Source of the DNA: Ignavibacteriota bacterium
GTDB lineage: Bacteria; Bacteroidota; Ignavibacteria; UBA10030; UBA6906
NCBI GenBank assembly: GCA_003158475.1
Contig: PMJR01000127.1
Span: 1-50,048, forward strand
Direction of reading: 5' to 3'
DNA: 50,048 bases
Both the position numbers and the translations under genes were made by a program. Under the pieces are notes generated by a model that was not told the DNA's origin, made no database searches, and saw nothing but the letters and a program-made list of their open reading frames with translations. Of this stretch, positions 19,560-35,193 are shown one piece after another; positions within the stretch are counted from its first letter, which is position 1; every line of letters begins with the position of its first letter.

Positions 19560-19811
19560 TCAGCCCTTCTTGGCCAGCCGGATGATGTACAGAAGGATGA
19601 GAGCACCCACAACAGCGGCGATCAGCAGGCCCAGGATGCCTCCGCTCGAAATGCCGAGCAGGCCGAATACCCAGACGCCGACGAAGGAACCTATGACCCC
19701 GACAATCAAATCACCGAGCAGGCCGAACCCGGCCCCCTTCATGATTTTCCCGGCGAGGAAACCGGCGACAATCCCGATCACGAGGAACAGAAGCAAGTTT
19801 TCCGTACTCAT
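19560..19811 (-). CDS. GlsB/YeaQ/YmgE-family membrane protein
   Basis: An 83-aa protein with three hydrophobic segments and the family pattern LVIGIVAGFLAGKIMKGAGFGLLGDLIVGVIGSFVG. This family (transglycosylase-associated protein) is induced by general and envelope stress in several bacteria; its molecular role is unknown. It starts 38 bp after the SPFH gene and is likely in the same transcript, driven by the promoter at 20779-20836. The cyclic glucan synthase lies 168 bp downstream. Confidence 0.9.
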   Translation of the reverse strand: MSTENLLLFLVIGIVAGFLAGKIMKGAGFGLLGDLIVGVIGSFVGVWVFGLLGISSGGILGLLIAAVVGALILLYIIRLAKKG

Positions 19812-19849: not shown

Positions 19850-20740
19850 CTATTTGGTGTCCAGGATGATCGGCAATCCATCCTTACCCGCCCCGACGAT
19901 TATGACCTTTGTGTTTTGCGAATTTGCAAGCTTCTCCGTTGCCTCAATACCCTTCCAGCGAAGCAGCTGGTCGCTGATGCCGGCGGCGACTATGGCCTGG
20001 AAGTCGGCGATACCCTTTGCTTCAATTCGTTTCCTGTCCGCCTCCTGCTTCTCCTTCGTGAGAATGAATTCCATGCGCTGGCTTTCCTGGTCGGCGCGCT
20101 GTTTCTGTTCTATCGCCTCGGTGAGTTGAGTCGGAAGCGCGACATTGCGAAGCGGCGTGGCTTCAATTGTTACTCCACGGGGCGCAACTGTCTTTGCCAG
20201 CTCTTCCTGGATCGCTACGCCGAGGCGCTCCCGTTCTGTCGAATACAGAGCGCTTGCCTGGAAACTCGCAGTGACGGCCCGGCTGATGGAACGGAACTGC
20301 GGAATGAGGATGATGGTTTCGTAGTCCCCGCCCGCGACCGTCTTGTACACGCGCCCTGCGGAGTCGGGGTTGAGCCGGTAGAGCACACTGATCTCGAGTC
20401 CGATTGTCAGGCCCTCACGCGAGAGAACCTGCATTGTCTCCTTGTGTTCCTGCGTCTGGATGGTGAATTTGACCACGTTCGCCAGCGGGTTGACGATATT
20501 GATGCCGGACGGAATAGTCTTCTCCGACACGATGCCGAAGAAATCCACAACGCCGACGTACCCCGCAGGCACCTGTGTGAAACACTGGAGCAATGCCAGA
20601 ACGGCGAAGACGCCCGCAAACAGGGCGCTCACCCTGGCAACGGAGCGGGAAGTGACGCTGTTCTGGGCCGTTTTCCCGGCGGCGCCCCGCCAGATGAAGA
20701 ATGCAACGATGGCGATGATGATCGAGGTGACAAAGACCAT
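19850..20740 (-). CDS. SPFH/prohibitin-family membrane protein
   Basis: A 296-aa protein with two N-terminal hydrophobic segments (residues ~3-18 and ~37-55) and an SPFH (band 7) domain (~55-240): VPAGYVGVVDFFGIV, LSREGLTIGLEISVLYRLNP, then the alkaline charged helix ATPLRNVALPTQLTEAIEQKQRADQESQ. It resembles prohibitin-type proteins, which assemble into membrane rings that organise proteases or stress responses. The ATG has an AAGGGA ribosome site. It is the first gene after a well-conserved promoter whose start site would lie ~32 bp upstream. It probably forms an operon with GlsB. Confidence 0.9.
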   Translation of the reverse strand: MVFVTSIIIAIVAFFIWRGAAGKTAQNSVTSRSVARVSALFAGVFAVLALLQCFTQVPAGYVGVVDFFGIVSEKTIPSGINIVNPLANVVKFTIQTQEHKETMQVLSREGLTIGLEISVLYRLNPDSAGRVYKTVAGGDYETIILIPQFRSISRAVTASFQASALYSTERERLGVAIQEELAKTVAPRGVTIEATPLRNVALPTQLTEAIEQKQRADQESQRMEFILTKEKQEADRKRIEAKGIADFQAIVAAGISDQLLRWKGIEATEKLANSQNTKVIIVGAGKDGLPIILDTK

Positions 20741-20778: not shown

Positions 20779-20836
20779 AATGTACAGGGTGGAAGCGCGT
20801 GATGTTATCCGTCAAAAGGATGGTAAAGGAGTTAAC
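20779..20836 (-). promoter_or_regulatory. Promoter and upstream activator site, copy A (SPFH operon)
   Basis: Read on the minus strand: GTTAAC (20831-20836), CATCC (20818-20822), a -35 element TAACAT (20802-20807), a 17-bp spacer and a -10 element TACATT (20779-20784). The same parts recur with identical spacing at 26581-26638 and 34922-34979. The upstream boxes probably bind a regulator next to RNA polymerase. Confidence 0.65.
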
Positions 20837-20911
20837 CCTTTCGGGGGATGGAGTTGCGAGCGGGTTTTGGAGGAATTGCTCCCGTCCGTCGGTGACGAGG
20901 ATCACATCTTG

Positions 20912-21835
20912 TTACTTCCGCAGGGCCGCAAGTTTTTCGAAGAGTGCGACTTCCTGCTCGTTGAGATGTTCCGGCATCCGGACGTCGAGCTTCACGAAAA
21001 GATTTCCAAACAGGGTCTTTTCACCATAGACCGGCATTCCAAGCCCCAGAAGCCTGAGCTCCTTGCCGTTCGGGGTTCCCTTCGCGATATCAACATTGAC
21101 CATTCCTTTCAGCGTTCTGACCTTCGCCTTCCCGCCAAGGACGGCCGTATACAACTCCACCGGGAAATCGCAGTAGAGGTCGTTCCCCTTCCGTTGAAAT
21201 TCCGGATGTGGTGCGACCCTGATGGTGAGAAAGAGGTCGCCGTTTGCGCCGCCGTGTGATCCGGTACCCCCTTTACCGGCGACCCGCAAGATCTGCATAT
21301 CCGCAACGCCGGGCTTGACCGTTACCCTGATCGTTTGGCCGTTGAGATGGATCAGACGGATCGCACCATTGTACGCTTCCTCGAGCGAGAAGACCGTTTC
21401 AGCTTCGAGGTCCTCCCCCTTGATTGCCGTACCCCTGCTCCCCCTCCTTCGGGCGCCGCTCTGTCCGAACAGCATCTCAAAAAGATCGCCGGCCACCTCC
21501 TCACCAAACACCGTATTGGATTCTCCGCCGCTCCGGTGTGTTTGTCCGGCATGGTCGCCGGCATACTTCGACCAGTCAAATCCTCCCGGCTCCGCCCCGG
21601 CTTTTTCGTAGACCTTCCAGTCAGCGCCGAACTGATCATACTTTTTTCTCTTCTCCGGATCGCCAAGGACTTCGTTGGCCTCGTTGATGTCCTTGAACCT
21701 CTCCTCGGCCGCCTTGTCTCCCTTGGCCTTGTCAGGATGATACTTGAGAGCAAGCTTTCGATACGCCTTCTTGATCTCCCCCTCTGTCGCTTTCTCTCCG
21801 ACCCCCAGTACTTTGTAGTAATCTTTATATGTCAT
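20912..21835 (-). CDS. dnaJ: DnaJ-family co-chaperone without zinc finger (CbpA/type II)
   Basis: A J-domain protein of 307 aa from the ATG at 21835; a longer frame exists but [12 protein letters not shown] is the usual family start. Residues ~1-65 are the J domain with the HPD motif ([10 protein letters not shown]) that stimulates DnaK ATPase. A Gly/Phe-rich linker with QSGARRRG follows, then the two C-terminal substrate-binding beta domains. The CxxCxGxG zinc repeats of classical DnaJ are absent, so it belongs with CbpA/DnaJ2 proteins. It lies 30 bp downstream of grpE; dnaK is not in the window. Expression with stress genes is expected. Confidence 0.9.
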
Positions 21836-21865
21836 CGTCTCCGCTTCCCCGCTGCCTGCCACGTG

Positions 21866-22399
21866 CTATCCGGCAACCCGCACCTGCGCCGGGCGCAACA
21901 ACTCACTCCTCCAGAGATACCCCCGACGCAAATCTTCAACGACGGTTCCCTGCTCGACATCGTCACTCTTCGCCAGGGCAACGGCTTCGTGCAACTCAGG
22001 GGTAAACGCCTTCCCCTGGCTGTCGAATGAGCGGACTTCCTGTGCCTCCAGGAGGGCAAGGAGCTTTCGATAGATGTTCTGCAGCCCTTCCGTCACCGGC
22101 CGCTCCGCACTGCCCGCCCAGTGCAGCGCCTTCTCCACATCGTCGATGATGCCGATAAGCGGAAGGAGCATCTCACGCTTGCCTGCCTCGGCAAGCTTGT
22201 TGCCTTCACGTTCAATGTGTCGGCGGTAGTTCTTGAAATCAGCCAGCGCGCGCAGATGCCGGTCACGCTCCTGGCGCAAGTCCTCCCGCAACCCTTCGAT
22301 CTCTTCTGCGAGGTCGGCCGGCCGGAGCAAATGCCGGCTTTCCCCGGATCCTGTGAGCACTGCCGCATTCTTCACGTTTTCGCGTGCATTAATTGCCAT
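21866..22399 (-). CDS. grpE: GrpE nucleotide exchange factor
   Basis: A 177-aa GrpE, the exchange factor that releases ADP from DnaK. It has a long N-terminal coiled coil (~30-75, EIEGLREDLRQERDRHLRALADFKNY) and the C-terminal beta domain with the signature FDSQGKAFTPELHEAV and GYLWRSELLRPAQVRV. The family's ADFKNYRRR-like segment is present. It is near the usual length. It overlaps no neighbour but sits 30 bp before dnaJ and 42 bp after the oxidoreductase gene. A second grpE for housekeeping is likely elsewhere in the genome, since dnaK is not adjacent. Confidence 0.93.
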   Translation of the reverse strand: MAINARENVKNAAVLTGSGESRHLLRPADLAEEIEGLREDLRQERDRHLRALADFKNYRRHIEREGNKLAEAGKREMLLPLIGIIDDVEKALHWAGSAERPVTEGLQNIYRKLLALLEAQEVRSFDSQGKAFTPELHEAVALAKSDDVEQGTVVEDLRRGYLWRSELLRPAQVRVAG

Positions 22400-22440
22400 G
22401 GTGGACCATCGTAATAGTGTGAGCGACGCTATTCACCGGG

Positions 22441-23571
22441 TCATTCCCCGACGTGGCCCGGGCCTGAATCTTCTTTAGTGAGCTTGACGACCATCTTGCC
22501 GATGTTACCTCCACGCAGCAGATCGACAAAGGCATGCGGCGCGCGATCGATCCCCTGCACCACCGTCTCTTTCATGACCAGGCCGCCCCCGGCGATATGG
22601 GCGTTCATCTCCTTCACAAATTCCGGCATACGGTCGAACCAGTCTCCTACGATGAAACCCCTCATCGTAAGCCGTTTGGTGACAAACAGATGAAGATTCC
22701 GGGGGCCCGACACCGGTGTCTCATCATTGTATCCTCCGATCGCACCGCACGCGATGATCCGTCCGTTCGGACGCATCGCCGAGAGCGCAGCCTCAAGCAT
22801 CTCGCCCCCGACATTGTCGAAATACACGTCGATACCGTCGGGCGCGGAGGCCTTGAGCTGGCGCGGGAGGTCCCCGTCCTTGTAGTTGAAGGCGGCATCA
22901 AAGCCGAGTTCCTTGAGGAGCATCGTGACCTTTTCCGGGGAGCCGGCACTGCCGATGACGCGGCATCCGCGCATCTTGGACAACTGACCGGCGATGCTCC
23001 CGACTGCCCCCGCCGCCGCGGAGATCAGGACGCGGTCGCCCGCCTTCACATCAACCAGGTTCAAACCGGCCCAGGCGGTCAATCCGGTCATGCCGAGCGC
23101 ACCGAGGTAGGCCGAGAGGGGCCGGACATCGCGGTCGACCACGCGGACCTCCCGCATCCCCGAGACAAAGTACTCGCGCCATCCGAGGCGGGAGGTGACG
23201 ATATCGCCCGGGACGATCCCAGGGGCCCGGGATTCAATCACCTCACCGACCGCCGCGCCGTCAAGCGGTTGATTCAGTTGAAACGGACTCACATAGGAAG
23301 GGACGTCGTTCATGCGACCGCGCATGTACGGGTCGACGGACATGTACAGGTTACGCACCAATACCTGGTCTTCCCCCGGCGGCGGCACTTCGACGCGGAC
23401 CACGGTAAAATTGTCGGGAACCGGCAACCCATGCGGTCGGGAGACGAGCCGGACCTCACGACTGATCGTCGGAATCCGCGCGACCCGTTTCTTCGGTTCA
23501 ATCTCAGCCAGCGGCGCTTTGACGCCTTTCTCCGTGGCGATTTCGCTTACAAATGTTTCCATGGTGACCAC
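22441..23571 (-). CDS. NADP-dependent MDR oxidoreductase (leukotriene B4 dehydrogenase / CurA type)
   Basis: A 376-aa zinc-independent medium-chain reductase. The catalytic half begins with RLVSRPHGLPVPDNFTVV and has NLYMSVDPYMRGRM, the usual substrate-loop motif. The Rossmann half has AAAGAVGSIAGQLSKMRGC, which binds NADPH. Related enzymes reduce alpha,beta-unsaturated ketones and aldehydes, including curcumin in CurA and lipid enals, so detoxification is likely. The N-terminal ~30 residues (MVTMETFVSEIATEKGVKAP) are an unusual charged extension; the start could be the fourth codon (23562). It lies between DUF3185 and grpE in a stress gene run. Confidence 0.88.
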   Translation of the reverse strand: MVTMETFVSEIATEKGVKAPLAEIEPKKRVARIPTISREVRLVSRPHGLPVPDNFTVVRVEVPPPGEDQVLVRNLYMSVDPYMRGRMNDVPSYVSPFQLNQPLDGAAVGEVIESRAPGIVPGDIVTSRLGWREYFVSGMREVRVVDRDVRPLSAYLGALGMTGLTAWAGLNLVDVKAGDRVLISAAAGAVGSIAGQLSKMRGCRVIGSAGSPEKVTMLLKELGFDAAFNYKDGDLPRQLKASAPDGIDVYFDNVGGEMLEAALSAMRPNGRIIACGAIGGYNDETPVSGPRNLHLFVTKRLTMRGFIVGDWFDRMPEFVKEMNAHIAGGGLVMKETVVQGIDRAPHAFVDLLRGGNIGKMVVKLTKEDSGPGHVGE

Positions 23572-23672
23572 CCTCCGGTTACTGATAGATCATTCGATTG
23601 GATCACCCGGTCCGACGGATGCCGAACCGGCTCGATGCCCGGTATTGCACGCCAGCAGATTCCCCTGCGGCA

Positions 23673-23885
23673 TCACACGTGTTTTCTCTGCAACAGGCGC
23701 GTCAACCCCATCACTCCAACGACCGCCGCAATCACGCCTCCCACGAGAAGCCACATCGCCCTGTCAGTCGGGGAGCCCGTGAAGAATCGGGAAATGTCGG
23801 AACTCAACCCGTTCGATGCGTTGATGCCGAGCACGATAAGCAGGATGCCCCCGGCAAGAAGGGCGAAAGAAAAGACTCTGTTCAT
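23673..23885 (-). CDS. DUF3185 family membrane protein
   Basis: A 70-aa protein from the ATG at 23885 (MNRVFSFALLAGGILLIVLG); a longer frame upstream lacks family similarity. Two membrane helices flank the conserved segment INASNGLSSDISRFFTGSPTDRAMW, the DUF3185 hallmark. Its function is unknown; it is often encoded with CsbD, DUF883-like and other general-stress proteins. It lies 54 bp after the AsmA-like gene, probably in the csbD transcript. Confidence 0.85.
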   Translation of the reverse strand: MNRVFSFALLAGGILLIVLGINASNGLSSDISRFFTGSPTDRAMWLLVGGVIAAVVGVMGLTRLLQRKHV

Positions 23886-23938
23886 GAGACAGTCCTCTGT
23901 GTTATTCGTTGCACACAACAATGTTCAACCTTCGTCAC

Positions 23939-25315
23939 TCAGAACCCGACGATATCACCGACGCCGCTGCGGAGAGCGAACCATGCAAATCCGAAAAACG
24001 GGTCCTTCTGCTTCCTGGCGTATCTCACGGTGCCGAACTTCATCGCGCCCGATCTGTCCGGCGTATTTGTCTTTCTGATCGTCACGTTCTTTGCCACCCA
24101 GGATGCGAACCTATCCACAAGGGCGTTCTCGCTGCCGGTGCGGCTGTTGATGGAAGCGACGATCAGGTCCCTGTAGACGGCGCGAACAGTGCCGGTGGCG
24201 ACCCCTGCCCTGACATTGATGTCGAACGCCGCCGACTCGAGCACTCCGGTCTTGATGCGCGTTTGATCGGATGGTTCGATCCATGGATTGAGTTTGCTCA
24301 GATCCATTCCGCTGAGTGAGCCGGAGTACCGGAGGGAGAATTGCGGGCTTGTCAGAGGGATCGACATGACCAGATTTACCGTGCCTCCCCCCATGAAGGT
24401 TCCCCGGCCGTGAATGCTCGCACCGGCACCCCGCTCGGCGTGACTGGCAACGCCTGTCACAAGCCCCTGCACACGATCGAACGTCAGCGTCGCGGGTTTC
24501 ACCCCCATCGCAAACCTCTCGCGGTACCTCAGCCGACAATCAGTGATGATCAGACTATCGAGCCCTACCGTGTCCTTCACAGAGGAGAGGATCTCGTCCG
24601 GCATGCGCGGCACCGGGGAACCATCGGCAGAGGGCTTGTCCTTGTTGATCAGAACGTCGGCAAAAACGTCCTGGAATTGGAGGGAACGGGCGTGGTAGTT
24701 CTCCCCCTGGAGCAAGTCGACATAGGCAAGCCCCGCCAGCCTGCATCGGCGGGCACTCATCTCAAACCAGGTTTTTCTGAACTTGCTCCCTTCAAAAAAC
24801 TGCGCGTCACTCACCAGGGGATGGAGCTCCAGAGCCTCAACCACAATTTCCGAATCCGGTACGGACAAACGCAACGGGCCGCACCGCAACCCGTATCCAA
24901 ACCCCTGAAACGCCATGTCAACTTCGCCTGCCTCTACAACAGAGGCGGCGAGGGTGCGAGGATCGACGCTGGTCCCGCGAAGGAGGCCCAGCCAATGAAC
25001 GCCGCTGACTGAGACTGCGGCGATACTCCCTGAAAAGGAGGAATCGTTTCGGGCCAGCAGTACGGAGTCGCATGCAATGCGGTTTTTCATTACGTCGAAC
25101 CGTATCCCGCTGATCCGTATCGAATACCCGGGATAGGATGCTGCGAAACCCTTTGTGATTCGCGCTTCAACAAATTTTTGGAGAAAGGCGGTCGGGAATG
25201 AGAGGAAAACCAACACACAGAGGAGCACAACAACTCCCAGAGCGATGGACGCGGTCCCCAGCGCCTTCCGCCATAAGGGTTTCTGCCTGTCGACCGCTCC
25301 CAGCCCACGATTCAT
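23939..25315 (-). CDS. Membrane-anchored AsmA/DUF748-like protein
   Basis: A 458-aa protein with one N-terminal membrane helix (residues ~18-42) and a large periplasmic part. The sequence alternates short strands with SIRISGIRFDVMKNRIACDSVLL, LRLSVPDSEIVVEAL and VKPATLTFDRVQGLVTG, the beta-rich layout of AsmA, DUF748 and other lipid-transport groove proteins. I cannot name a closer family. Its start overlaps the csbD stop (ATGA, 25312-25315), so it is translationally coupled to it. A role in the outer membrane or envelope maintenance under stress is plausible but inferred. Confidence 0.6.
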   Translation of the reverse strand: MNRGLGAVDRQKPLWRKALGTASIALGVVVLLCVLVFLSFPTAFLQKFVEARITKGFAASYPGYSIRISGIRFDVMKNRIACDSVLLARNDSSFSGSIAAVSVSGVHWLGLLRGTSVDPRTLAASVVEAGEVDMAFQGFGYGLRCGPLRLSVPDSEIVVEALELHPLVSDAQFFEGSKFRKTWFEMSARRCRLAGLAYVDLLQGENYHARSLQFQDVFADVLINKDKPSADGSPVPRMPDEILSSVKDTVGLDSLIITDCRLRYRERFAMGVKPATLTFDRVQGLVTGVASHAERGAGASIHGRGTFMGGGTVNLVMSIPLTSPQFSLRYSGSLSGMDLSKLNPWIEPSDQTRIKTGVLESAAFDINVRAGVATGTVRAVYRDLIVASINSRTGSENALVDRFASWVAKNVTIRKTNTPDRSGAMKFGTVRYARKQKDPFFGFAWFALRSGVGDIVGF

Positions 25316-25635
25316 CGAACCCCTTGAAGTGGTTTGTGCTTTCGGCCCGACTTCCTTTTTTTGATCTGATCCGACTTGTCTGAATTGATCATGGATTTCT
25401 GCAGCTCCATCAGCCTTCGTCTGGACAGCTTCAGTTGCTCAACGGTCTCCTTATATACGGCAGCGTGCCCCCTGGCCTCTTCTTTGGCATTGCCGTATCT
25501 CTCCTGGAGTTCTCCGACAAGCGCTTCGTACTTGCCGGCGATTGCGGCGAGCTCGTCGTTCATTACTTTCCCCCAGTGTTGTACAGCCTTGCCCCTTCGT
25601 TGCTTCCACTCCCCTTCAATGCTATCCCAGTTCAT
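25312..25635 (-). CDS. CsbD-family general stress protein
   Basis: A 107-aa protein starting MNWDSIEGEWKQRRGKAVQHWGK and continuing IAGKYEALVGELQERYGNAKEEA, the CsbD signature. CsbD proteins are small, abundant stress proteins of unknown mechanism, sigma-B dependent in Bacillus. The C-terminal half (~60-107) is a charged helical extension not present in the ~60-aa standard form. It is first in the csbD, AsmA-like, DUF3185 run. A degenerate copy of the shared promoter element lies ~110 bp upstream. Confidence 0.88.
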   Translation of the reverse strand: MNWDSIEGEWKQRRGKAVQHWGKVMNDELAAIAGKYEALVGELQERYGNAKEEARGHAAVYKETVEQLKLSRRRLMELQKSMINSDKSDQIKKRKSGRKHKPLQGVR

Positions 25636-25726
25636 ATTTTACCTGACGTATTTCCGGATGCTCATCCGGCATTCTTGTGACACTCCTCTTTCTCGAGGAT
25701 GAGAGTTCGCGCTTGCGAATGATGAA

Positions 25727-25784
25727 GCAAACAACCCCTGAGTCCGGAAAGGAATAGGGCAACAAGGATGAAAAGGTGGCTCAT
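25727..25784 (-). promoter_or_regulatory. Degenerate copy D of the shared promoter element (csbD)
   Basis: On the minus strand CATCC (25766-25770) is followed after the standard interval by ATTCCT at the -35 place (25750-25755) and GTTTGC at the -10 place (25727-25732). The GTTAAC box is replaced by ATGAGC (25779-25784). Around CATCC the sequence CTTTTCATCCTTGTTGCCC matches the strong copies well. Activity is uncertain. Confidence 0.35.
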
Positions 25785-25822
25785 TCCCTCCTTGCCGGCC
25801 TACGACACAAAGGGGCCACTGG

Positions 25823-26548
25823 CTACAGGGACGGCACAAGTCCGTTCTTCCCGACCAGGACCCGGTTTACGGACAACTCGCCGTTTGGCTTCTGGTTCGC
25901 GATCACGAGCACATGCGCCCCCGGCTTCAAATCGAGCGTCCGGCCCGCCTCGAATGTGACGATGGGCGTCCCCCACGGAATCGTCAGGGCTTGCGGGCGG
26001 GTCATTGCGGAGCTCTTGAACTGCAGCGTCAGGGAAGTCCCCCCTTCCCGGTTCCCCGCGATAGAGCTGTTCGTCCTTGCATCCCCATCCTTCCCGCCCT
26101 TGATTCCGGACCCCGGCGGCAGGCCGAGCATTGAGGCATGGGAGGTGGTCCCGTTCAGCACCGTTGCACCTCCTCCATCAAGACTGGAGAGATCCGAGGC
26201 AAAACTTCCCTCGCCTGTTCTGGGCGCGCCCGCAGGAAAGATATGGACCTCTATCGCCCGCATCGATCCGTCCGACTGGATGACGGATGTGATCCCCATG
26301 TAACTGCCATCTTTGAGATGCCCGCGGTCGGACGCGACGACAACGGACACCCGGGAAGGGGATACGAGCTCGACGGGCACCGGCCCGGTCAAGGTTTCGA
26401 CCGTGAGCAACGGGCCGCTCACACTCTGGACGGTGCCGCGGACGAGAACTGCCCGGCGCGGCAGGGGATCGGAAGATGCAGACATGCACCCCGAGGCGAG
26501 CACCCCGGCGCCGGCAAATATGACAAACATGGCTGAAGTTGTGCGCAT
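25823..26548 (-). CDS. Exported lipoprotein with beta-rich domains
   Basis: A 241-aa lipoprotein from the ATG at 26548, chosen because GAGGA lies 6 nt upstream and a signal peptide follows at once (MRTTSAMFVIFAGAGVLASGC, lipobox LASGC). A longer frame to 26617 would bury the signal. The mature protein begins VLVRGTVQSVSGPLLTVETLTGPVPVELVSPSRVSVVV, a strand pattern like small OB-type (DUF5666-like) domains, and repeats a similar pattern after ~180 (ALTIPWGTPIVTFEAGRTLDLKPG, HVLVIANQKPNGELSVNRVLVG). The ligand is unknown. It is controlled by promoter copy B; its transcript would start ~26 bp upstream. Confidence 0.65.
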   Translation of the reverse strand: MRTTSAMFVIFAGAGVLASGCMSASSDPLPRRAVLVRGTVQSVSGPLLTVETLTGPVPVELVSPSRVSVVVASDRGHLKDGSYMGITSVIQSDGSMRAIEVHIFPAGAPRTGEGSFASDLSSLDGGGATVLNGTTSHASMLGLPPGSGIKGGKDGDARTNSSIAGNREGGTSLTLQFKSSAMTRPQALTIPWGTPIVTFEAGRTLDLKPGAHVLVIANQKPNGELSVNRVLVGKNGLVPSL

Positions 26549-26580
26549 TGTCGTCCTCACGTGGGCATAGTTGATGAAGA

Positions 26581-26638
26581 AGTGTATCGAGGAAAAACCG
26601 GGAAGGTAATAGCGCAAAGGGATGAAAACATAGTTAAC
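26581..26638 (-). promoter_or_regulatory. Promoter and upstream activator site, copy B (lipoprotein)
   Basis: On the minus strand: GTTAAC (26633-26638), CATCC (26620-26624), -35 TTACCT (26604-26609), 17-bp spacer, -10 TACACT (26581-26586). Identity with copy C extends into the spacer (CGGTTnTTCCTCG). The lipoprotein ATG lies ~33 bp downstream of the -10. Confidence 0.7.
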
Positions 26639-26647
26639 CCCCTTTTG

Positions 26648-26670
26648 GGGAGGAAACGTGATTTCCTCCC
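26648..26670. terminator. Stem-loop between the response regulator and promoter copy B
   Basis: GGGAGGAAA (26648-26656) and TTTCCTCCC (26662-26670) form a perfect 9-bp stem with a 5-nt loop, 62 bp after the response regulator stop. No T-run follows on the minus strand, so it may be a weak terminator or a structural element insulating promoter B. Confidence 0.45.
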
Positions 26671-26731
26671 GGAGAACGTTGAAGGGAAAGGAGGCCCTAA
26701 CGAGGCTTAACGGAGGAGGAAGGGAACGGGT

Positions 26732-27385
26732 TCAGGACGGTTCGTGATTGTGGGCGGACATTGCTATCTGTAGGCGACTGTGTATGGCGAGTTTTTCGAG
26801 GATGTTATGAACATGACTCTTGACCGTGTATGTCGCGATGTTGAGCCGCTGGGCGATTTCCTTGTTGCTGAGACCTTCGGCAATCAGCGAGATGATTTCA
26901 CGTTCACGCTTCGTCATCCGCACCGCGCTGGCCAGCTTTCCCTTCCCCTTTTTGAGCGCGTTGTCGATAACATGAGTAAACAGCGAGCCGGCGAGCGAAG
27001 GAGGGAGGACTTTTGCCCCGCGGGCAACCGAGCGTATGGTTCCCAGAAAATCCTCCACCGTCGCGTCTTTGAGGATGAAGCCCGATGCCCCAGCCTCCAC
27101 CCACTCGACGATATCCAGCTGTGACGGGATAAGGCCCATCCCGATCACTTTGATCTCAGGAAATCCCTTGTTCAGAGAGGCAAGAACACGGACACCGTTT
27201 TGATTCCGCAAACCAAGATCGAGGAGAACAACGTGAGGTTTCAGTTTGCCCACCTGCACCAGAGTGCTGTCACTGCCCCCGGAAGCAGCCACGACCGTCA
27301 TATCTGCTTCCTCCTTGATCATGGCCGCGATGCCCTCGCGTAAAATGCGATTATCTTCAACAAGGAGTATCCGGATCGTTTTCAT
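26732..27385 (-). CDS. Orphan NarL/FixJ-type response regulator
   Basis: A 217-aa two-domain response regulator. The receiver (1-120) has acidic residues in LLVEDNR, the phosphoacceptor D56 in LLDLGL and K106 in ILKDATV. The switch Thr/Ser normally found after the fourth strand is replaced: IGMGLIPS has Gly where Thr is expected. The C-terminal LuxR-type helix-turn-helix (~148-210) reads LTKRE-like TKREREIISLIAEGLSNKEIAQRLNIATYTVKSHV. No histidine kinase is encoded nearby. Being embedded among genes with a shared promoter element makes it the best candidate for binding that element; this is an inference. Confidence 0.9.
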   Translation of the reverse strand: MKTIRILLVEDNRILREGIAAMIKEEADMTVVAASGGSDSTLVQVGKLKPHVVLLDLGLRNQNGVRVLASLNKGFPEIKVIGMGLIPSQLDIVEWVEAGASGFILKDATVEDFLGTIRSVARGAKVLPPSLAGSLFTHVIDNALKKGKGKLASAVRMTKREREIISLIAEGLSNKEIAQRLNIATYTVKSHVHNILEKLAIHSRLQIAMSAHNHEPS

Positions 27386-27676
27386 TCAGGAAGGGGCCTG
27401 AATCAGGTGGTGGATGTTTGGTTGAACTGCCGGGGCATACTGCCTTTCAATGAACAAACATTTTGGATCAGAAACAAAGGAGAATTGGGCGGAAAAAATC
27501 ACGCCGCGGCCGATCAAAAGGCGGGGGACAAGGTCTCCTGCTGCGTCCCCGGGAACCGAAGGGACGATCAAGGGTGATGAAGATCTGAACATGCGCGAAG
27601 TCGCGTCCCGGCCTTCCGATGTGGGGGTGACGGCACCACGACGGCCATCGAAGACGATCGTGCGCGAAGGACTCGA

Positions 27677-29158
27677 CTATAGGTACTGCTCAAACACTCG
27701 CCGGAAGTGGAATCCATAGATGGCAAGGGTGATGGCCGTTGAAAAATGCCGGGGCCGGCGGAACAGCGACCAGAAGAAGAGCTTCCAGTAGTACAATCGC
27801 TCTTTCCCTACGATCCCGAGCAGGACCATCGACCTTGACAGGGCGTGCAGCTGGGCGAACTGAAAAGGGGCTTTGTGGCGCCGGAGAGGTTCATGGGTCC
27901 TGAGAAAATCAATGACCCGCTGATAGTACTCTTTCGGGGAGTAGATCGTCGCCAGGATCTTCCTGTAGCCGTCGAGAAGCGCCTCGTTGTTCATCTTCGG
28001 GGTGAAGTTCATCGTGAAATCCGTGTTGGACCCCGAAAACGTCTTCAGAAGCCTCTCCTCCCGTCCGAGCCTGTGGTACAGTCGTGTGTTGATCGGGGCG
28101 TTGAGGAGCCCCACCATCGCAACGACAATCCCGCTCTCCCTGATGAACCGGATTAACGTGTCAAAAATGGACGGGGGATCGTGGTCGAATCCCACGATGA
28201 ACCCCCCCTGGACCTGCAGGCCGGCCTTCTGGAGGGTCTTGACGCTTGCGATCAGATCCCGGTTCCTATTCGGTATCTTCCTGCATTCCTCCAGGCTCTC
28301 TTCGTTCGGGCTTTCGATTCCGACGAAAATCTCTTCAAATCCCGCCTGGGCCATAAGGTCCAGCAATCTCGGGTCATCAGAGAGGTTGAGGGATGCCTCG
28401 GTCCCGAAAGTGAACGGGAACTGCCTTGCCTCCATCCACCGGATGACCAGGGGGAGGACTTCCTTCTTCAACTTAATCCTGTTCCCGATGAAGTTGTCAT
28501 CGACGAAGAACACGTGCCCGCGCCACCCGTTCCGGTACAGAGCATCCAGCTCCACGATCACCTGCGCGCTGGATTTCGTGCGCGGCTCGCGCCCGTAGAG
28601 GACAGTAATATCGCAAAACTCACAGTCGTACGGGCAGCCGCGCGAGTACTGGACATTCATGGTGGCGTACTGGCCCGGGTCGATGAGGTTCCACATCGGC
28701 AGGGGGGTCGTGGCCAGATCCGCCCACTCATCTGTTTCGTACAGGTGTTCCGGCCGGCCGGCCAGGAGGTCATCGATAAACCGGGGGAGTGTGATCTCCG
28801 CCTCGTTCAGCACGAAGTGGTCCACTCCCTGGAATTCCTCGTGCCGGGCAGTAAACAGCGGTCCGCCTGCGACAACCTTTGTCCGCACCTCGTTGCATCG
28901 TGCGATCACTTCCCGCGCGGACTCCGCCTGTACGGCCATCCCGCCGAGGAAAACGTAGTCGGCCCATCGGAGATCCTCCGTCTCGAGCGGGGTCAGATTG
29001 AGATCAACCAGCCTCTTCTCCCACTCAACAGGCAGGAGGGCGGCGACCGTCAACAATCCCAGGGGAGGTTGCCCGGCCTTCTTGGAAACAAACCGGAGGG
29101 CGTGCTTGAAGGACCAGAAATTATCCGGATATTCAGGACAGACGAGAAGGATATTCAT
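27677..29158 (-). CDS. B12-binding radical SAM protein (DUF4070, HpnP-like)
   Basis: A 493-aa protein from the ATG at 29158 (MNILLVCPEYPDNFWSFKHAL), the standard opening of this family; a longer frame to 29317 is ignored. Residues ~1-130 form a cobalamin-binding domain. The radical SAM core has RGCPYDCEFCDITVLYGR (CxxxCxxC, ~175) for the 4Fe-4S cluster, then FVDDNFIGN. The C-terminal third matches DUF4070. Members include the hopanoid C-2 methylase HpnP, so a lipid methylase is possible, but many relatives have unknown substrates and no hopanoid gene is nearby. A weak copy of the stress promoter element lies ~160 bp upstream. Confidence 0.85.
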   Translation of the reverse strand: MNILLVCPEYPDNFWSFKHALRFVSKKAGQPPLGLLTVAALLPVEWEKRLVDLNLTPLETEDLRWADYVFLGGMAVQAESAREVIARCNEVRTKVVAGGPLFTARHEEFQGVDHFVLNEAEITLPRFIDDLLAGRPEHLYETDEWADLATTPLPMWNLIDPGQYATMNVQYSRGCPYDCEFCDITVLYGREPRTKSSAQVIVELDALYRNGWRGHVFFVDDNFIGNRIKLKKEVLPLVIRWMEARQFPFTFGTEASLNLSDDPRLLDLMAQAGFEEIFVGIESPNEESLEECRKIPNRNRDLIASVKTLQKAGLQVQGGFIVGFDHDPPSIFDTLIRFIRESGIVVAMVGLLNAPINTRLYHRLGREERLLKTFSGSNTDFTMNFTPKMNNEALLDGYRKILATIYSPKEYYQRVIDFLRTHEPLRRHKAPFQFAQLHALSRSMVLLGIVGKERLYYWKLFFWSLFRRPRHFSTAITLAIYGFHFRRVFEQYL

Positions 29159-29284
29159 GGAGTACCATTTCCCGGGGAGGGATGTGATGCCGCGACGCAC
29201 GATCAGGTGAGAGGTCTTGAACTCTCCGTTCCACAGGCCGGTGCTCTCCCCTTGCAGGTCGGAAGGCGTCCAAGTCACCATCTG

Positions 29285-29342
29285 CAACCTAACAAACAAA
29301 TCACAGCACCGCATCATCCCAAAGGATGAAAACGGGATTAGT
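29285..29342 (-). promoter_or_regulatory. Weak copy E of the shared promoter element (radical SAM gene)
   Basis: GTTTTCATCCTTT (minus strand, CATCC at 29324-29328) matches the strong copies, and ACTAAT lies where GTTAAC is expected (29337-29342). The -35 and -10 places (29308-29313, 29285-29290) do not match well. It may be a chance or a decayed site. Confidence 0.25.
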
Positions 29343-29356
29343 CCATTTCGTCCTCG

Positions 29357-31843
29357 TTACTTGATGCCCCCGCCAGCATCGCTCGATTTGTGCGAAACAA
29401 CCTGGAGAGCAGCACCTTTGAGGTCCGCCGAAAAGGCCGTTACACGAATGCTCCCGCTCTTTCCATTCGATCGGACGACAGCAAGAGCAAGTCCGTTAAA
29501 GGCCTTGCGCAGTTTACTCTTCATCGTGGTCTTTTCCTGCGGGTTGCCATTGTCGGTGCAGGAGAGCGCTCCCTCCCCTTCAACTTTGAATTCAATGAGG
29601 TTATTCGCGTCCGGAACAACGAGCCCGTTTTCATCAACAATCTCCACCCTGACATCGACAATATCATGGACATCTGCGTCGATATCATTTCTATCCGCCG
29701 AGAGACGAATGGCCGCAGGTCTGGAAGTTGTGCGAACCTCTTCCGTCACGACCTGTCCATTTTTTTTGGCAACCACCCTCAACAATCCCGGTTCATAAGG
29801 GACATCCCACGAAAGATGCAAATCTGAGGTGGTTGCCGGAACAAACGGCCGGTCAAACTTATTCCAGCCCCCGGAATTGCCCTGCTGCGGAAAGACAACG
29901 GATTTCACGCCAAAGGATTTCCCGTTTACAAAAAGTTCGACGCTGTCACAATTGGTATACGCGATGACAGGAACCACCTGGCCTTCGTGTCCGGACCAAT
30001 TCCAATGAGGGAAGAGATGGACCATCGGCTTGTTGGTCCATTGGCTTTGATAAAAATAATACCCGTCCTTGGGAAAACCGCACACGTCGATGACGCCTGA
30101 ACTTGAACTTTTGTTCGGCCATCGGGCCTCTCCCAGATAGTCAATGCCCGTCCACATGAAATCCCCTATGACATAGTCATACAATGAGGTAAATCGCCAT
30201 AACTGCTCCGCCGGGATCATATTGAATTTGTAATCGGTTGATCGACCGGGCCTCCCGGATGACGTATCGGACACAAGAGTATAGTCTCCGCGAATCCCCG
30301 GAATGGAAACATTTTCAGTCCCTATCATTTTCCTGTCCGGATAGTCGTGCCTGTCAACACTATAATACAATTCCCTCCGCTTCAGCCATCGGTCAACGTA
30401 ATTATACCCCACAATATCCTGCAATTCGAGAAACCGGGGTTTTGCCGGATAGTCAACGTCGGCAATCCTGTCATTCGCGACTGTTACCGGCCTGGTAGGG
30501 TCTTCCTTGTGAAGCGTTTCGACCAAGTGTCGCAACACTTCCGGGCCTCCGTCGGCCCCCTGCTCGAGAACCTCATTGCCGGCACTCCACAATACCACCG
30601 ATGGATGATTCCGGTCCCGATGGATCATGGAAATCAGATCTGATTGTGAACATTCTTCGAAATACTTATGATACCCGTATGCCACTTCCCCTTTCTTGAT
30701 TTCCCATTCATCAAACGCCTCATCCATGACCAGAAACCCCATTCTATCGCACAGGTCAAGAAACTCAGAAGCCGGCGGGTTATGTGCAGTGCGAATGGCA
30801 TTGCAGCCCATGTCTTTGAGCAGTTGCAGACGCCTTTTCCATGCCTGCTCGGGAACGGCAGTCCCAAGACAACCTGCATCGTGGTGCAGGCACACGCCAT
30901 TCATCTTTACGTGCTTTCCGTTCAGCGTAAACCCCTTGTTCTTATCGTATTCAATCGTACGGATACCGAATGTCGAGCTCAGGTTGTCGCGCAGCGTTGT
31001 TCCTTCTATTATTGATGACTGAAGCTTACAGAGCGACGGCACATCAATCGACCAGAGCGAAGGAGAGACAACCCTGATGGTCTGCCCTACTTCTGTCTTG
31101 CCCGACGGTGCAAGTGCAACAGGCGTTTCAAGAGTCACCAGCTGTTTCCCTGTTACATCCGTTATGACCGACCTCAACACAACTTTCCTGGCGATTGGGG
31201 AATTGTTTTCGATGGAAGTGCGGACTTGAATAGTTGCTGAGGATGAATCAACCGACGGTGTGGTAATATACGTACCCCACTGAGCTACATGCACAGGCCC
31301 GGCAATATTCAACCACACATGGCGGTAGATGCCCGAGCCTGAGTACCAGCGGCTGTTGGGCTGGAGAGAATTGTCAACTCTGACAGCTATCAGATTTTCT
31401 CCTTCATTGACAAAAGGCGTCAAATCGTAGGTGAAACTGGAGTAGCCATAGGGATGCTTGCCCAGATGCCGCCCGTTTATCCAGACGTCGGCATTCATGT
31501 ACACACCGCCGAATTCAATCCACACAGCGTGGTCCTTCGGATTTACAGACAAGCTGAAATGTTTGCGATACCATCCGATTCCGGCCGGAAGAAAACCGCC
31601 GTTTCCTTTCGTCTCCGCGTCCTCGCTAAACTCGCCTTCGATGCTCCAATCGTGCGGAAGATTGAGTGTCCGCCATCGGGCATCATCGAATGCCTGTTGT
31701 TCTGCACCTTGGGTATCGGAACGAACAAATTTCCAGTCGTCATCCAGCAGCAGATGCTGACGGTTGTCAGGCGCGGCACACCAAACATTGAGAGAAAGAA
31801 TGTGCAGGATGGGAAGTATGAGGAAACGTGAATGGCTTTTCAT
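29357..31843 (-). CDS. Exported GH2 beta-galactosidase-type glycosidase
   Basis: An 828-aa secreted GH2 enzyme from the ATG at 31843; the N-terminus (MKSHSRFLILPILHILSLNVWCAA) is a signal peptide. The sugar-binding domain has LPHDWSIEGEFSED and GIGWYRKHF, the Ig-like domain spans ~200-300, and the TIM barrel holds the acid/base E424 in WSAGNEV and the nucleophile E510 in GTENVSIPG. The C-terminal part (PWxxWSGHEGQVVPVIAYTNCDSVELFVNGKS) is the DUF4982-type domain followed by a beta sandwich. It probably cleaves terminal beta-galactosides or related sugars from plant polysaccharides. It is co-oriented with the GH27 gene 122 bp upstream. Confidence 0.9.
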   Translation of the reverse strand: MKSHSRFLILPILHILSLNVWCAAPDNRQHLLLDDDWKFVRSDTQGAEQQAFDDARWRTLNLPHDWSIEGEFSEDAETKGNGGFLPAGIGWYRKHFSLSVNPKDHAVWIEFGGVYMNADVWINGRHLGKHPYGYSSFTYDLTPFVNEGENLIAVRVDNSLQPNSRWYSGSGIYRHVWLNIAGPVHVAQWGTYITTPSVDSSSATIQVRTSIENNSPIARKVVLRSVITDVTGKQLVTLETPVALAPSGKTEVGQTIRVVSPSLWSIDVPSLCKLQSSIIEGTTLRDNLSSTFGIRTIEYDKNKGFTLNGKHVKMNGVCLHHDAGCLGTAVPEQAWKRRLQLLKDMGCNAIRTAHNPPASEFLDLCDRMGFLVMDEAFDEWEIKKGEVAYGYHKYFEECSQSDLISMIHRDRNHPSVVLWSAGNEVLEQGADGGPEVLRHLVETLHKEDPTRPVTVANDRIADVDYPAKPRFLELQDIVGYNYVDRWLKRRELYYSVDRHDYPDRKMIGTENVSIPGIRGDYTLVSDTSSGRPGRSTDYKFNMIPAEQLWRFTSLYDYVIGDFMWTGIDYLGEARWPNKSSSSGVIDVCGFPKDGYYFYQSQWTNKPMVHLFPHWNWSGHEGQVVPVIAYTNCDSVELFVNGKSFGVKSVVFPQQGNSGGWNKFDRPFVPATTSDLHLSWDVPYEPGLLRVVAKKNGQVVTEEVRTTSRPAAIRLSADRNDIDADVHDIVDVRVEIVDENGLVVPDANNLIEFKVEGEGALSCTDNGNPQEKTTMKSKLRKAFNGLALAVVRSNGKSGSIRVTAFSADLKGAALQVVSHKSSDAGGGIK

Positions 31844-31964
31844 AGTTGAACACCTCTCCCTTTGGTGGGTATCCACAGCCACTGCCCTACCGCCGACGCG
31901 ACCCATGACACCGGGTGAACCGGTTCAGCAGGAATGCGCTGACCGCCCGGCACGGCGGCAAGTG

Positions 31965-33170
31965 CTATTTTTCCAATCTGAGCATGAGCACGTCATGCGG
32001 TGCAATGGTGGAAACGAGCGTATTGGCAGTCGTGTCGATTCTCTTCTTCTTCCAAAGGTCGCGAAGAACGTAGGTTCGCCGTACACAATTCAATTCGGAC
32101 ATTGTCACATCATCGCGGATGACGTCCTTCCTCCAGTCATGCCGGATGGTTGCGGCCTTTGAACCCCGGTTGAAAAAGCAGACCGCCCAATCGCCACCCT
32201 GGAGGGGTTTGTACCAGATTTCCAGGCTATCGGGTTGTGTTTGTCTGAAGCCCTGAATGCCGAGTGAATCCTGATCGATGGCAATAGCCTCCTTGTTTGT
32301 GAGGATTTCAAGGGTCGCCTTCGACATTGTCCTCAGATCGTTGCCGGCAATAAGGGGGGCGGCCAACATGCACCAGAGCGTGAAATGGGCGCGACTTTCA
32401 TTCACCGTCAGGGTTCCGTTTCCGACCTCAAGCATATCGGGATCATTCCAGTGTCCCGGTCCGGCATAGGCACGAAGGCCCTCCTGTTTTTCAAGGATCT
32501 GCATCACGCCGTAGGAATTATACTTTCCGCCGTGATCGTCGATGCAATTCCAGCATGCAGTGATATCGCCCGTCGTCCTCCAAAGATGGCCGATACCCGC
32601 ACCCCAGAGCCAGGGCTTGTTGTTCCCCCACTCACACATGCTGAACACCATGGGTCGTTTGGCGGCGCGCAGGGCATCGCGCATCGTCGCGTACGCCCCC
32701 GGGGCATTGATGCCTTCGGTATTGCACCAGTCATATTTGAGATAATCGGCGCCGAGGCGGGCAAAGACCAGGGCGTCCTGGAATTCATGACCCCGGCTCG
32801 CGGTATAGCCGCCGCAGGTTTTGTAGCCTGCATCAGAATAGAGCCCGAGTTTCAGTCCTCTGGAGTGGATGTATTCCGACAGGTCCTTCAGTCCGGACGG
32901 AAACCTGTTTGCGTCGACGGTCAGAAAACCAAGGCTATCCCGCGGTCCGGTCCAATTGTCGTCGACGATCACGTACGCATACCCGGCGTCTTTCATTCCC
33001 GAGGAAACGAGAAGATCAGCCATCTCACGTATCAATTTCTCATTAAAATTCCCCGCAAACGTATTGAATGTGTTCCACCCCATGGGCGGGGTGAGGGCCA
33101 GACTGTCGACTTTTTGTGCCTGACAGTCGAGCGTGACTACGAGGGTGAATGTCAGCAGGAGTTTTATCAA
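31965..33170 (-). CDS. Exported GH27 alpha-galactosidase
   Basis: A 401-aa secreted GH27 enzyme. The best start is the TTG at 33170, which follows GGAG by ~10 nt and gives a clean signal peptide (LIKLLLTFTLVVTLDCQAQ); a longer frame to 33299 overlaps the SDR gene. The mature protein opens ALTPPMGWNTFN, typical of the family. The nucleophile aspartate is in YLKYDWCN (~147) and the acid/base in RTTGDI (~202). GPGHWNDPDML completes the barrel signature. It removes alpha-linked galactose, for example from galactomannan or raffinose-type sugars. The C-terminal beta domain is complete. It would act with the GH2 enzyme downstream. Confidence 0.92.
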   Translation of the reverse strand: MIKLLLTFTLVVTLDCQAQKVDSLALTPPMGWNTFNTFAGNFNEKLIREMADLLVSSGMKDAGYAYVIVDDNWTGPRDSLGFLTVDANRFPSGLKDLSEYIHSRGLKLGLYSDAGYKTCGGYTASRGHEFQDALVFARLGADYLKYDWCNTEGINAPGAYATMRDALRAAKRPMVFSMCEWGNNKPWLWGAGIGHLWRTTGDITACWNCIDDHGGKYNSYGVMQILEKQEGLRAYAGPGHWNDPDMLEVGNGTLTVNESRAHFTLWCMLAAPLIAGNDLRTMSKATLEILTNKEAIAIDQDSLGIQGFRQTQPDSLEIWYKPLQGGDWAVCFFNRGSKAATIRHDWRKDVIRDDVTMSELNCVRRTYVLRDLWKKKRIDTTANTLVSTIAPHDVLMLRLEK

Positions 33171-33219
33171 TGTGATTACTCTCCGTTGTTCGGTGCGTTT
33201 CAGAGTCTCAGAGCCGAGG

Positions 33220-33897
33220 TCACTCCCGGCGGGTTTCGCCGACCTCCACGCGCCGGGGATCCCTGAGTATGCGGACAAATCTGTACCGGTAGTCTCCATG
33301 AAATTGCCCGATGATCTGCCGAGCGACCCAGGGGGCGTCCAGCATGCCTGTCACGTCCCTTCCCCCCTTCCTCCAGAACGGCGTGGCCATCCCGGCGGGG
33401 GCCGCGACGAGAACTTTCCCGAGCTTCGGGTCGAGTGAGAGAGAATTCCCCAGCATCCCAAGCCCCGCTTTCACAGCCGTGTAGATCGGCTCATGCGGGC
33501 GCGGTGTCCACTGGGAGGTCGATGTAACCGCAATGAGGGCGGGGAGCTCATTCTGTTTCCTGAGTATCCTCTGGATGAGCATCGAAGGCGCGACCAGGCC
33601 GACGGACGTCATTGCGGCGATCTCCGCGTCGTCTACACTTTCGAGGAGACCCTGCTGACTGAACCCGGCGGCATAGACAAGAAGGTCGATGGAGGGGATC
33701 GAAGCCAGGAGAGCGTCGAGTTTTGAGCCGAGCTCGCGTCGTTCGGCACTCAGGTCCAGGATTGTACACGACAGCCCTCCCTTCCCCGGATCGTGCCGGC
33801 CGGTGATAAACACCCGGTACTCTTCTGCAAACAGGAGCCCCAGTTCCAGACCGAGGCCGGAGGTGCCGCCGACGATGAGCGCATTCATCTTATCCAT
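33220..33897 (-). CDS. Short-chain dehydrogenase/reductase
   Basis: A 225-aa SDR from the ATG at 33897 (MDKMNALIVGGTSGLGLELG); a start at 33915 is also possible. The NAD(P)-binding motif is GGTSGLG, the active site has serine in TSTSQW and YTAVKAG (Y-x-x-x-K), and PAGMATPFW follows. The protein lacks a clear NNAG; it reads VYAAG. The family is too broad to name a substrate. Its 3' end lies 50 bp before the GH27 start, and it is 172 bp downstream of the exported protein gene. Confidence 0.88.
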   Translation of the reverse strand: MDKMNALIVGGTSGLGLELGLLFAEEYRVFITGRHDPGKGGLSCTILDLSAERRELGSKLDALLASIPSIDLLVYAAGFSQQGLLESVDDAEIAAMTSVGLVAPSMLIQRILRKQNELPALIAVTSTSQWTPRPHEPIYTAVKAGLGMLGNSLSLDPKLGKVLVAAPAGMATPFWRKGGRDVTGMLDAPWVARQIIGQFHGDYRYRFVRILRDPRRVEVGETRRE

Positions 33898-33939
33898 GGC
33901 CCCCTCGTAAGACATTGTGAGCGGGTACAATGACGGAAC

Positions 33940-33966
33940 ACGCCTCCCCCGGGGCGGGAGAGGCGT
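33940..33966. terminator. GC-rich stem-loop after the exported protein gene
   Basis: ACGCCTC (33940-33946) pairs with GAGGCGT (33960-33966), with C-rich and G-rich bases continuing the stem inward. It lies ~105 bp after the stop at 34069 and before the SDR start. No clear T-run follows on the minus strand, so termination is uncertain. Confidence 0.35.
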
Positions 33967-34068
33967 CCGAAAGAATGAAGAAAATCAGAGCGCTATGAAC
34001 TTAAACAAGGAAAGTATGGAATTCAAGCAGGTGCGATCGCGGTTCCATGCGACCGCTCGTTTCACCGG

Positions 34069-34782
34069 TCATGCCTTTCGCTTGCGCCGTAACGCGCGCA
34101 CTATGAGGACCGTCATCAACAGGATGACGATAATGATAAGAATAGTGATGGCAGGAGTCCCCCACAACCCGGGAGTTTCACCGGGCTTGGAGCCTTCTCC
34201 CGGCATCGCGCCTTCATCAATCAGCAGCACGCCCACCCGCGCCGGCGTCCGGAGTGCCTTGGGAACAAATGCAGCCGCGCTCCCCACGGCCATTTGCGAT
34301 CTCGTTTTTACGACCGTGGCTGTGATTTTATCCCCTTCGCGCAGCTGATCCAGCGTTTTCTCTTTCCCCTCAACGGTGATCTTGCCCCCCGTAGGCACGC
34401 GGTACATCCTGTTCTCCCCCTCCGGCGTCTTGATGATCAAACTGTTGCCGACATTCTTCCACACCGTCCCGAGTTCGATTACTTCCACCGTATCAACCCA
34501 CCTGGGAGGGGTCGCGGTGGTAACCGTTGCGTTCAACTTCATCCCCGGCGTCAGCTCGTGAACGGTCACATCTTTGCCGTCGATGGTAATCCTGAGGCCC
34601 TCTGGAATCTCAAACTGCTTTACCTCGCCATTTGCCAACTTCACGACGACATCGTTCCCCTCGACGTACACAACCTCGGCATTTTCAAACCTGGTCTCAA
34701 CGTGCTGGGCCCGGACCCCCTGGGCCGACACCATGCACACCAGCGTCGCTACAAGAAATCGAACGGATCGTAGATGGATCAT
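34069..34782 (-). CDS. Exported beta-rich protein with C-terminal membrane anchor
   Basis: A 237-aa protein with a signal peptide (residues ~8-25, cleavage after VRAQ), two repeats of a small beta domain, and a C-terminal membrane helix (TPAITILIIIVILLMTVLIVRALRRKRK). Each repeat has the pattern GNDVVVKLANGEVKQFEIPEGLRITIDGKDVTVHELTPGMKL / GNSLIIKTPEGENRMYRVPTGGKITVEGKEKTLDQLREGDKI, so the two halves are duplicated. The function is unknown. It is preceded by promoter copy C and a short leader frame whose stop overlaps its ATG. Confidence 0.75.
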   Translation of the reverse strand: MIHLRSVRFLVATLVCMVSAQGVRAQHVETRFENAEVVYVEGNDVVVKLANGEVKQFEIPEGLRITIDGKDVTVHELTPGMKLNATVTTATPPRWVDTVEVIELGTVWKNVGNSLIIKTPEGENRMYRVPTGGKITVEGKEKTLDQLREGDKITATVVKTRSQMAVGSAAAFVPKALRTPARVGVLLIDEGAMPGEGSKPGETPGLWGTPAITILIIIVILLMTVLIVRALRRKRKA

Positions 34783-34910
34783 GTATGCTCTCCGTATTGT
34801 TCAAGTCGGCTTTCGGCAAATGCGAGAAGCACGTCAGTATCCGTTCTTGTGCCCTCAACGGTCCGAGATGCTTCTCGGTGGAAGACGGGCTTATTGCGCT
34901 TATCCTTCAC
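34779..34910 (-). CDS. Possible 43-aa leader peptide
   Basis: A GTG-initiated frame of 43 codons begins ~5 bp after the expected start of the copy-C transcript and ends with a TGA that overlaps the ATG of the exported protein gene (ATGA). That geometry suits translational coupling. The ribosome site (GGCGGG) is weak and the peptide is mostly charged (VKDKRNKPVFHREASRTVE), so it may be non-coding leader. Confidence 0.25.
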   Translation of the reverse strand: MKDKRNKPVFHREASRTVEGTRTDTDVLLAFAESRLEQYGEHT

Positions 34911-34921
34911 CCCGCCGGGAA

Positions 34922-34979
34922 AGTGTACCGAGGAAGAACCGTCGATGTAATAGGGCAAAAGGAGGATAAAGGAGTTAAT
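34922..34979 (-). promoter_or_regulatory. Promoter and upstream activator site, copy C (exported protein)
   Basis: On the minus strand: ATTAAC (34974-34979), CCTCC in the CATCC place (34961-34965), -35 TTACAT (34945-34950), 17-bp spacer and -10 TACACT (34922-34927). The spacing matches copies A and B to the base. Confidence 0.65.
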
Positions 34980-35193
34980 CCCCCTTTGTCTGACGCAGGA
35001 GCCCTCCAGCTGTCTGGTTGCCCGGTCGGATGTACTGACGAAAGGGATTCGATGGGTTTCAGGCAGATCTGAGGAGGGTGCGACGAGGAGGCCTGCCAGC
35101 AGTGTTTTTACGGCACCTCTCGGCGGGGGTATCAATACGTAACGAAGAATGCGAGATTCACAGGAGATCTCGCCGAGGACCTGTGGACAAACG

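Follow-up and report, generated by a model that had tools for sequence, protein, structure and literature searches.

The window, a 50,048-nt stretch of DNA that is contig C95 in our numbering, carries on its minus strand genes for an SPFH/Band 7 protein and a GlsB/YeaQ-type protein, a CsbD protein, a putative lipoprotein, a response regulator, a radical SAM protein and an exported protein (Table 1). The lipoprotein has no Pfam or NCBIfam match. The true start of the radical SAM gene is downstream of the operator that precedes it, because its homologues begin MNILLVCPEYP. A single open reading frame of 3057 aa (10218-19391, minus strand) adjoins this stress cluster.

Table 1. Promoter elements, genes behind them, candidate regulator and mini-receiver genes. 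Positions are those of the window unless a locus is named; R1 is the sequence-only model described in the text.
Feature	Position	Strand	Match or score
Site 1: SPFH-GlsB promoter operator, 33 bp	20806..20838	(-)	R1 50.4 bits, E 7.3e-15
Site 1: -10 TACATT	20779-20784	(-)	
Site 2: lipoprotein promoter operator, directly downstream of response-regulator gene	26608..26640	(-)	R1 52.4 bits, E 1.8e-15
Site 2: -10 TACACT	26581-26586	(-)	
Site 3: exported-protein promoter operator	34949..34981	(-)	R1 58.7 bits, E 1.9e-17
Site 3: -10 TACACT	34922-34927	(-)	
Weaker operator before B12/radical SAM (DUF4070) gene	29312..29344	(-)	R1 18.8 bits, E 5.5e-5
Weakest operator, before csbD	25754..25786	(-)	R1 13.6 bits, E 0.0024
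SPFH/Band 7 protein	19850..20740	(-)	PF01145
GlsB/YeaQ-type protein (Transgly_assoc), second gene after SPFH	19560..19811	(-)	PF04226
CsbD	25312..25635	(-)	PF05532
Putative lipoprotein, 241 aa	25826..26548	(-)	Lipobox-like N-terminus read from sequence
NarL/FixJ-type response regulator, proposed activator, 217 aa	26732..27385	(-)	Pfam Response_reg and GerE
B12-binding radical SAM protein, DUF4070	27677..29317 (ORF as listed)	(-)	
Exported protein, 237 aa	34069..34782	(-)	N-terminal signal
Mini-receiver gene	L119:1026-1310		
Mini-receiver gene	L121:1074-1256		
Mini-receiver gene	L122:2372-2554		
Mini-receiver gene	L125:1080-1379		
Mini-receiver gene	L129:2486-2788		
Mini-receiver gene	L073:1588-1854		
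Mini-receiver gene	L164:6853-7152		

The first-pass annotation had proposed that three promoters in the window share the same boxes at the same intervals, and that two weaker copies precede csbD and the radical SAM gene. When the window was scanned with R1, a sequence-only model trained on 15 sites of the window's own genome, matches were obtained at exactly these five places. The three strong copies, which like the genes behind them all lie on the minus strand, align 5' to 3' without gaps from AAGGGGGATTAAC through to the -10, and in each of them the -10 starts exactly 54 bp from the initial G of the operator, so the intervals do agree to the base. The boxes themselves had been read as GTTAAC and CATCC in all three promoters, and this does not hold for site 3, which has ATTAAC and CCTCC. 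The two weaker copies were recovered, that of csbD also by its PWM score (16.7 versus a control maximum of 12.9), and both lack a good -10 at the fixed distance. A TTACAT had been taken for the -35; it is common to some copies and is not conserved over a larger set of 120 sites.

This larger set, comprising 120 distinct sites from the genome of the window and its relatives, yields a 33-bp operator with the consensus GGATTARCTMCTYTTTCATCCYTTYGGNCGATT (positions 0-32), in which CCYTTYGGNCGAT forms a second conserved block. The operator, or box, is followed by a variable stretch and then by TAtaMT at positions 54-59, often with GG before it; 103 of the 120 sites have TANNNT at offset 53 or 54, whereas at most other offsets it occurs about one or two times. 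Nothing TTGACA-like is conserved at the place of the -35 in these sites, which suggests that the promoters depend on an activator. An imperfect inverted repeat, GGATnAR-N7-TTnATCC, is centred on position 10 (p=0.026 against shuffled columns). A pure palindrome and a 10-bp direct repeat of the OmpR type were the first guesses tried, and in the tests a 9-bp direct repeat scores about as well as the palindrome. Since the inverted repeat is modest and the direct repeat performs similarly, the symmetry is ambiguous and the arrangement of a bound dimer is uncertain.

Copies of the element extend well beyond the window. BLAST with site 3 against the window's genome (3.75 Mb in 153 contigs) returned further copies, and TTAACTCCTTTNNCATCCTTT, with up to 3 mismatches allowed, occurs 14 times in this genome compared with 3 times for a reversed-pattern control. 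At E<1e-3, R1 reports 24 sites in the same genome. Some of them were not in its training set, for example the boxes in front of two more CsbD genes. In 405 kb of control sequence surrounding unrelated LuxR-type regulators, it gives 0 matches at E<=1. Most sites of the window's genome are followed, 25-210 bp on, by an ORF that runs in the same direction and has a plausible ribosome site; a random scatter over the genome, which had been named as the outcome that would speak against a regulon, was thus not observed. The repeated promoter pattern is confirmed as real and beyond chance. In this uncultured Ignavibacteria-type bacterium and in its relatives, a shared DNA switch stands before some 25-30 genes, most of them of stress type. 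A separate observation concerns genome G030, where about 14 boxes are found in 50 kb of contig C2 (138-188 kb; loci L087-L089) and where the sampled members of its family (G025, G035 and G039) have no boxes. This cluster looks like a stress island gained or retained as a block.

The products of the genes that come first after the sites, 144 proteins in all, were scanned together. The families counted were CsbD (14), DUF5670/lmo0937 (11), B12/radical SAM (9), DUF4398 (8, the downstream proteins of this type being lipoproteins), DUF932 (7), the regulator described below (7), KaiC (6) and ice-binding proteins (4). GlsB/YeaQ (Transgly_assoc), YtxH and ECF sigma factors are represented by single boxed examples, and boxed signalling proteins include PAS histidine kinases and one receiver-HisKA-HATPase hybrid. 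Stress families are enriched in this tally, which bears out the first-pass view of the targets as stress-type genes. Boxed radical SAM/DUF4070 genes are present in other genomes too. In the reverse direction, 19 genomes yielded 16 CsbD genes, of which 14 are preceded by a box at a distance of about 160 bp (the weak copy of the window included); all four CsbD genes of the window's own genome are boxed, and its three DUF5670 genes comprise two that are directly boxed and a third that lies behind a boxed csbD. ECF sigma genes with an upstream box were seen in three genomes (L087:8512-9138, L091:9029-9673 and L175:7027-7581), which suggests a layered cascade. Genes for KaiC-type double ATPases are boxed in L140, L142, L148, L165, L075 and L087, and in several genomes such genes adjoin that for the regulator.

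Immediately upstream of site 2, gene 26732-27385 encodes what is, by its domain content, a member of the NarL/FixJ family, with a receiver (PF00072, 1.2e-15) and a LuxR-type HTH (PF00196, 1.7e-19). Its closest solved relatives by full-length sequence match are NarL (1a04) and VraR (5hev), and DevR (PDB 3c3w) is matched at 4.4e-29; none of the NCBIfam equivalogs reaches its cut-off for this protein (NarL 143.9 bits versus 250). Among 26 orthologues, the phospho-acceptor D56 and K106 are invariant and the acidic pair E10/D11 is nearly so; the protein was also aligned with NarL. The switch Ser of NarL couples phosphorylation to dimerisation. Opposite this Ser, the regulator has Gly84, or Asp in a diverged branch, rather than Ser/Thr, and its activation route may for this reason be atypical. 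Three close paralogues of the regulator are present in the genome of the window. The boxed PAS or hybrid kinases are candidates for its partner kinases.

The association of this regulator with the box was followed across genomes. In 41 relatives, regulators fall into two clearly separate classes, close orthologues of about 50-100% identity and a background of about 30%. The close orthologues adjoin boxes across genomes, even where R1 sees only one motif per genome, and lie directly upstream of a boxed gene. In the pooled data, 55 of 74 orthologues are followed by a box within 333 bp and none of 55 background LuxR-type regulators is, a comparison in which the PWM was partly trained on regulator-linked loci, a bias of which the named-genome set and R1 are free. 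The remaining 19 orthologues have no recognisable downstream box; four of them have one upstream, and some of the 19 may carry diverged boxes. The named-genome loci, which were fetched with a profile from the orthologue alignment, come from Ignavibacteriae, Melioribacteraceae, Zixibacteria, Gemmatimonadetes and one MAG labelled Deltaproteobacteria. In this set, R1 gives 53 matches in 35 regulator loci and no boxes in 35 loci of background regulators. Boxes stand behind most Ignavibacteria and Zixibacteria orthologues and are weak or missing in Gemmatimonadetes. The regulator gene itself is preceded by a box in L140, L141, L149, L161 and others, while that of the window has none upstream.

Presence of the motif also follows presence of the regulator. 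Among the relatives, motifs were found in 18 of the 23 genomes with a close orthologue and in none of the 18 without. In an even draw of 119 genomes of the class, the figures were 15 of 29 and 0 of 90 (Fisher p=1.9e-11, or about 1e-8 once genomes already used are left out), p-values that overstate the evidence, as the genomes are related and not independent, although the direction is not in doubt. Furthermore, the boxes vary along with the regulator subfamily, a GGGACTAGTCCC-type box being found beside the regulators of L119, L121, L122 and L125. The first-pass annotation had named no regulator; on these comparisons, the product of 26732-27385 is most likely the one that acts on the shared box.

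A further feature is seen in the diverged branch, whose regulators are about 50-61% identical to the protein of the window. The next gene after these regulators, itself under a box, encodes a protein of 60-100 aa that matches only the alpha4-beta5-alpha5 region and linker of the regulator (about 30-50% identity, E down to 2e-15), lacks both Asp56 and the HTH, and has no Pfam match. About a dozen of the 41 relatives, and two further named genomes, encode such mini-receivers next to the regulator. We hypothesise that they cap the dimer face of the regulator and would act as feedback inhibitor microproteins.

The regulon reading of the shared promoters is supported by these data, and we consider it highly probable that they constitute one regulon of activator-dependent promoters run by the 26732-27385 regulator or a close paralogue. 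With a start site near position 66, the operator would span about -66 to -34, where activators that touch polymerase usually bind. Bound there, next to a weak -35 region, the regulator or one of its three paralogues would recruit an ordinary (sigma-70-like) RNA polymerase, placing it on the TAtaMT -10 at a fixed distance from the operator. The regulon would supply general-stress and envelope proteins. Signalling genes, for PAS or hybrid histidine kinases, for an ECF sigma factor and for a KaiC ATPase, would often belong to it, and in a number of relatives it would include the regulator itself, in positive autoregulation. We infer DNA binding by the regulator, activation and not repression, phosphorylation and induction by stress. 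More tentatively, it is possible that this subfamily, in Ignavibacteria, Zixibacteria, Gemmatimonadota and neighbours, replaces a sigma factor as the general-stress master, its receiver switch being atypical and mini-receivers under its own box restraining it in part of that range.

The resemblance of the target families to the sigma-B and RpoS regulons raises the question as to whether the element is itself an alternative (ECF or sigma-B-like) sigma promoter, with the upstream boxes as its -35 and TACACT as its -10. A box does precede ECF sigma genes in the three islands L087, L091 and L175; however, ECF genes are found in few motif-bearing genomes, and there as targets. Furthermore, a 33-bp block that starts 54 bp before the -10 is too long and too distant for a -35, and the -10 is TATAAT-like. 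What is seen in place of a sigma-B/EcfG-type -35/-10 pair is a 33-bp operator 54 bp from such a -10, with no conserved -35, and we regard a sigma promoter as very unlikely. It is scarcely credible that a dispersed repeat or mobile element devoid of any regulatory role accounts for the copies, as their number, and the clustering of some of them on G030 contig C2, might suggest. This possibility is largely refuted by the conservation, which is confined to the operator and the -10 and gives way to unrelated sequence between and outside them; moreover, orientation and distance to the gene are constrained, and boxed gene families are shared between different genera.

A further question is what binds the operator, and to what effect: it could be a repressor site, for the regulator or another factor, or be occupied by a different factor of the same stress islands. 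Linkage alone cannot separate a binder from its neighbour, but the motif is missing from every sampled genome that has no close orthologue, be it one of the 18 relatives or of the 90 genomes of the class (the two draws share some genomes), and the type of box changes together with the regulator subfamily. Activation is favoured over repression because the operator sits beside the missing -35. We consider another binder, or repression, unlikely, and retain activation by the regulator or a paralogue as the preferred reading.

A search of the papers available returned no earlier description of this regulon, nor of any general-stress regulon for Ignavibacteria and their neighbours. The CRP/FNR regulons treated for an anammox community that includes Ignavibacteria (PMC8510549) appear to represent a different system. 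The present analysis yields an operator sequence, a candidate regulator and a target list for an Ignavibacteria-type stress regulon, and permits function to be assigned by shared control to the orphan families CsbD, DUF5670/lmo0937, DUF932, DUF4398 and the DUF4070 radical SAM proteins. It also suggests that a two-component regulator can take charge of genes that are under sigma-B or RpoS elsewhere.

As in other NarL/FixJ systems, a receiver is combined with a LuxR-type HTH, and a multi-gene regulon has a fixed operator upstream of the -10; the difference is that the switch Ser/Thr is replaced by Gly/Asp and that the regulator forms its own subfamily with its own operator. In mycobacteria, DosR/DevR is a NarL-type response regulator that drives a dormancy stress regulon via a conserved upstream box. 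A similar pairing of a NarL-type response regulator with a conserved upstream box is proposed here on linkage and co-occurrence, while the operator, the target set and the phylum differ. The general stress regulons of sigma-B, RpoS and EcfG are controlled by sigma factors through -35/-10 elements. Their targets are of similar kinds (CsbD, YeaQ/GlsB-type and small membrane proteins), whereas control in the present case is predicted to pass through an activator operator tied to a response regulator.
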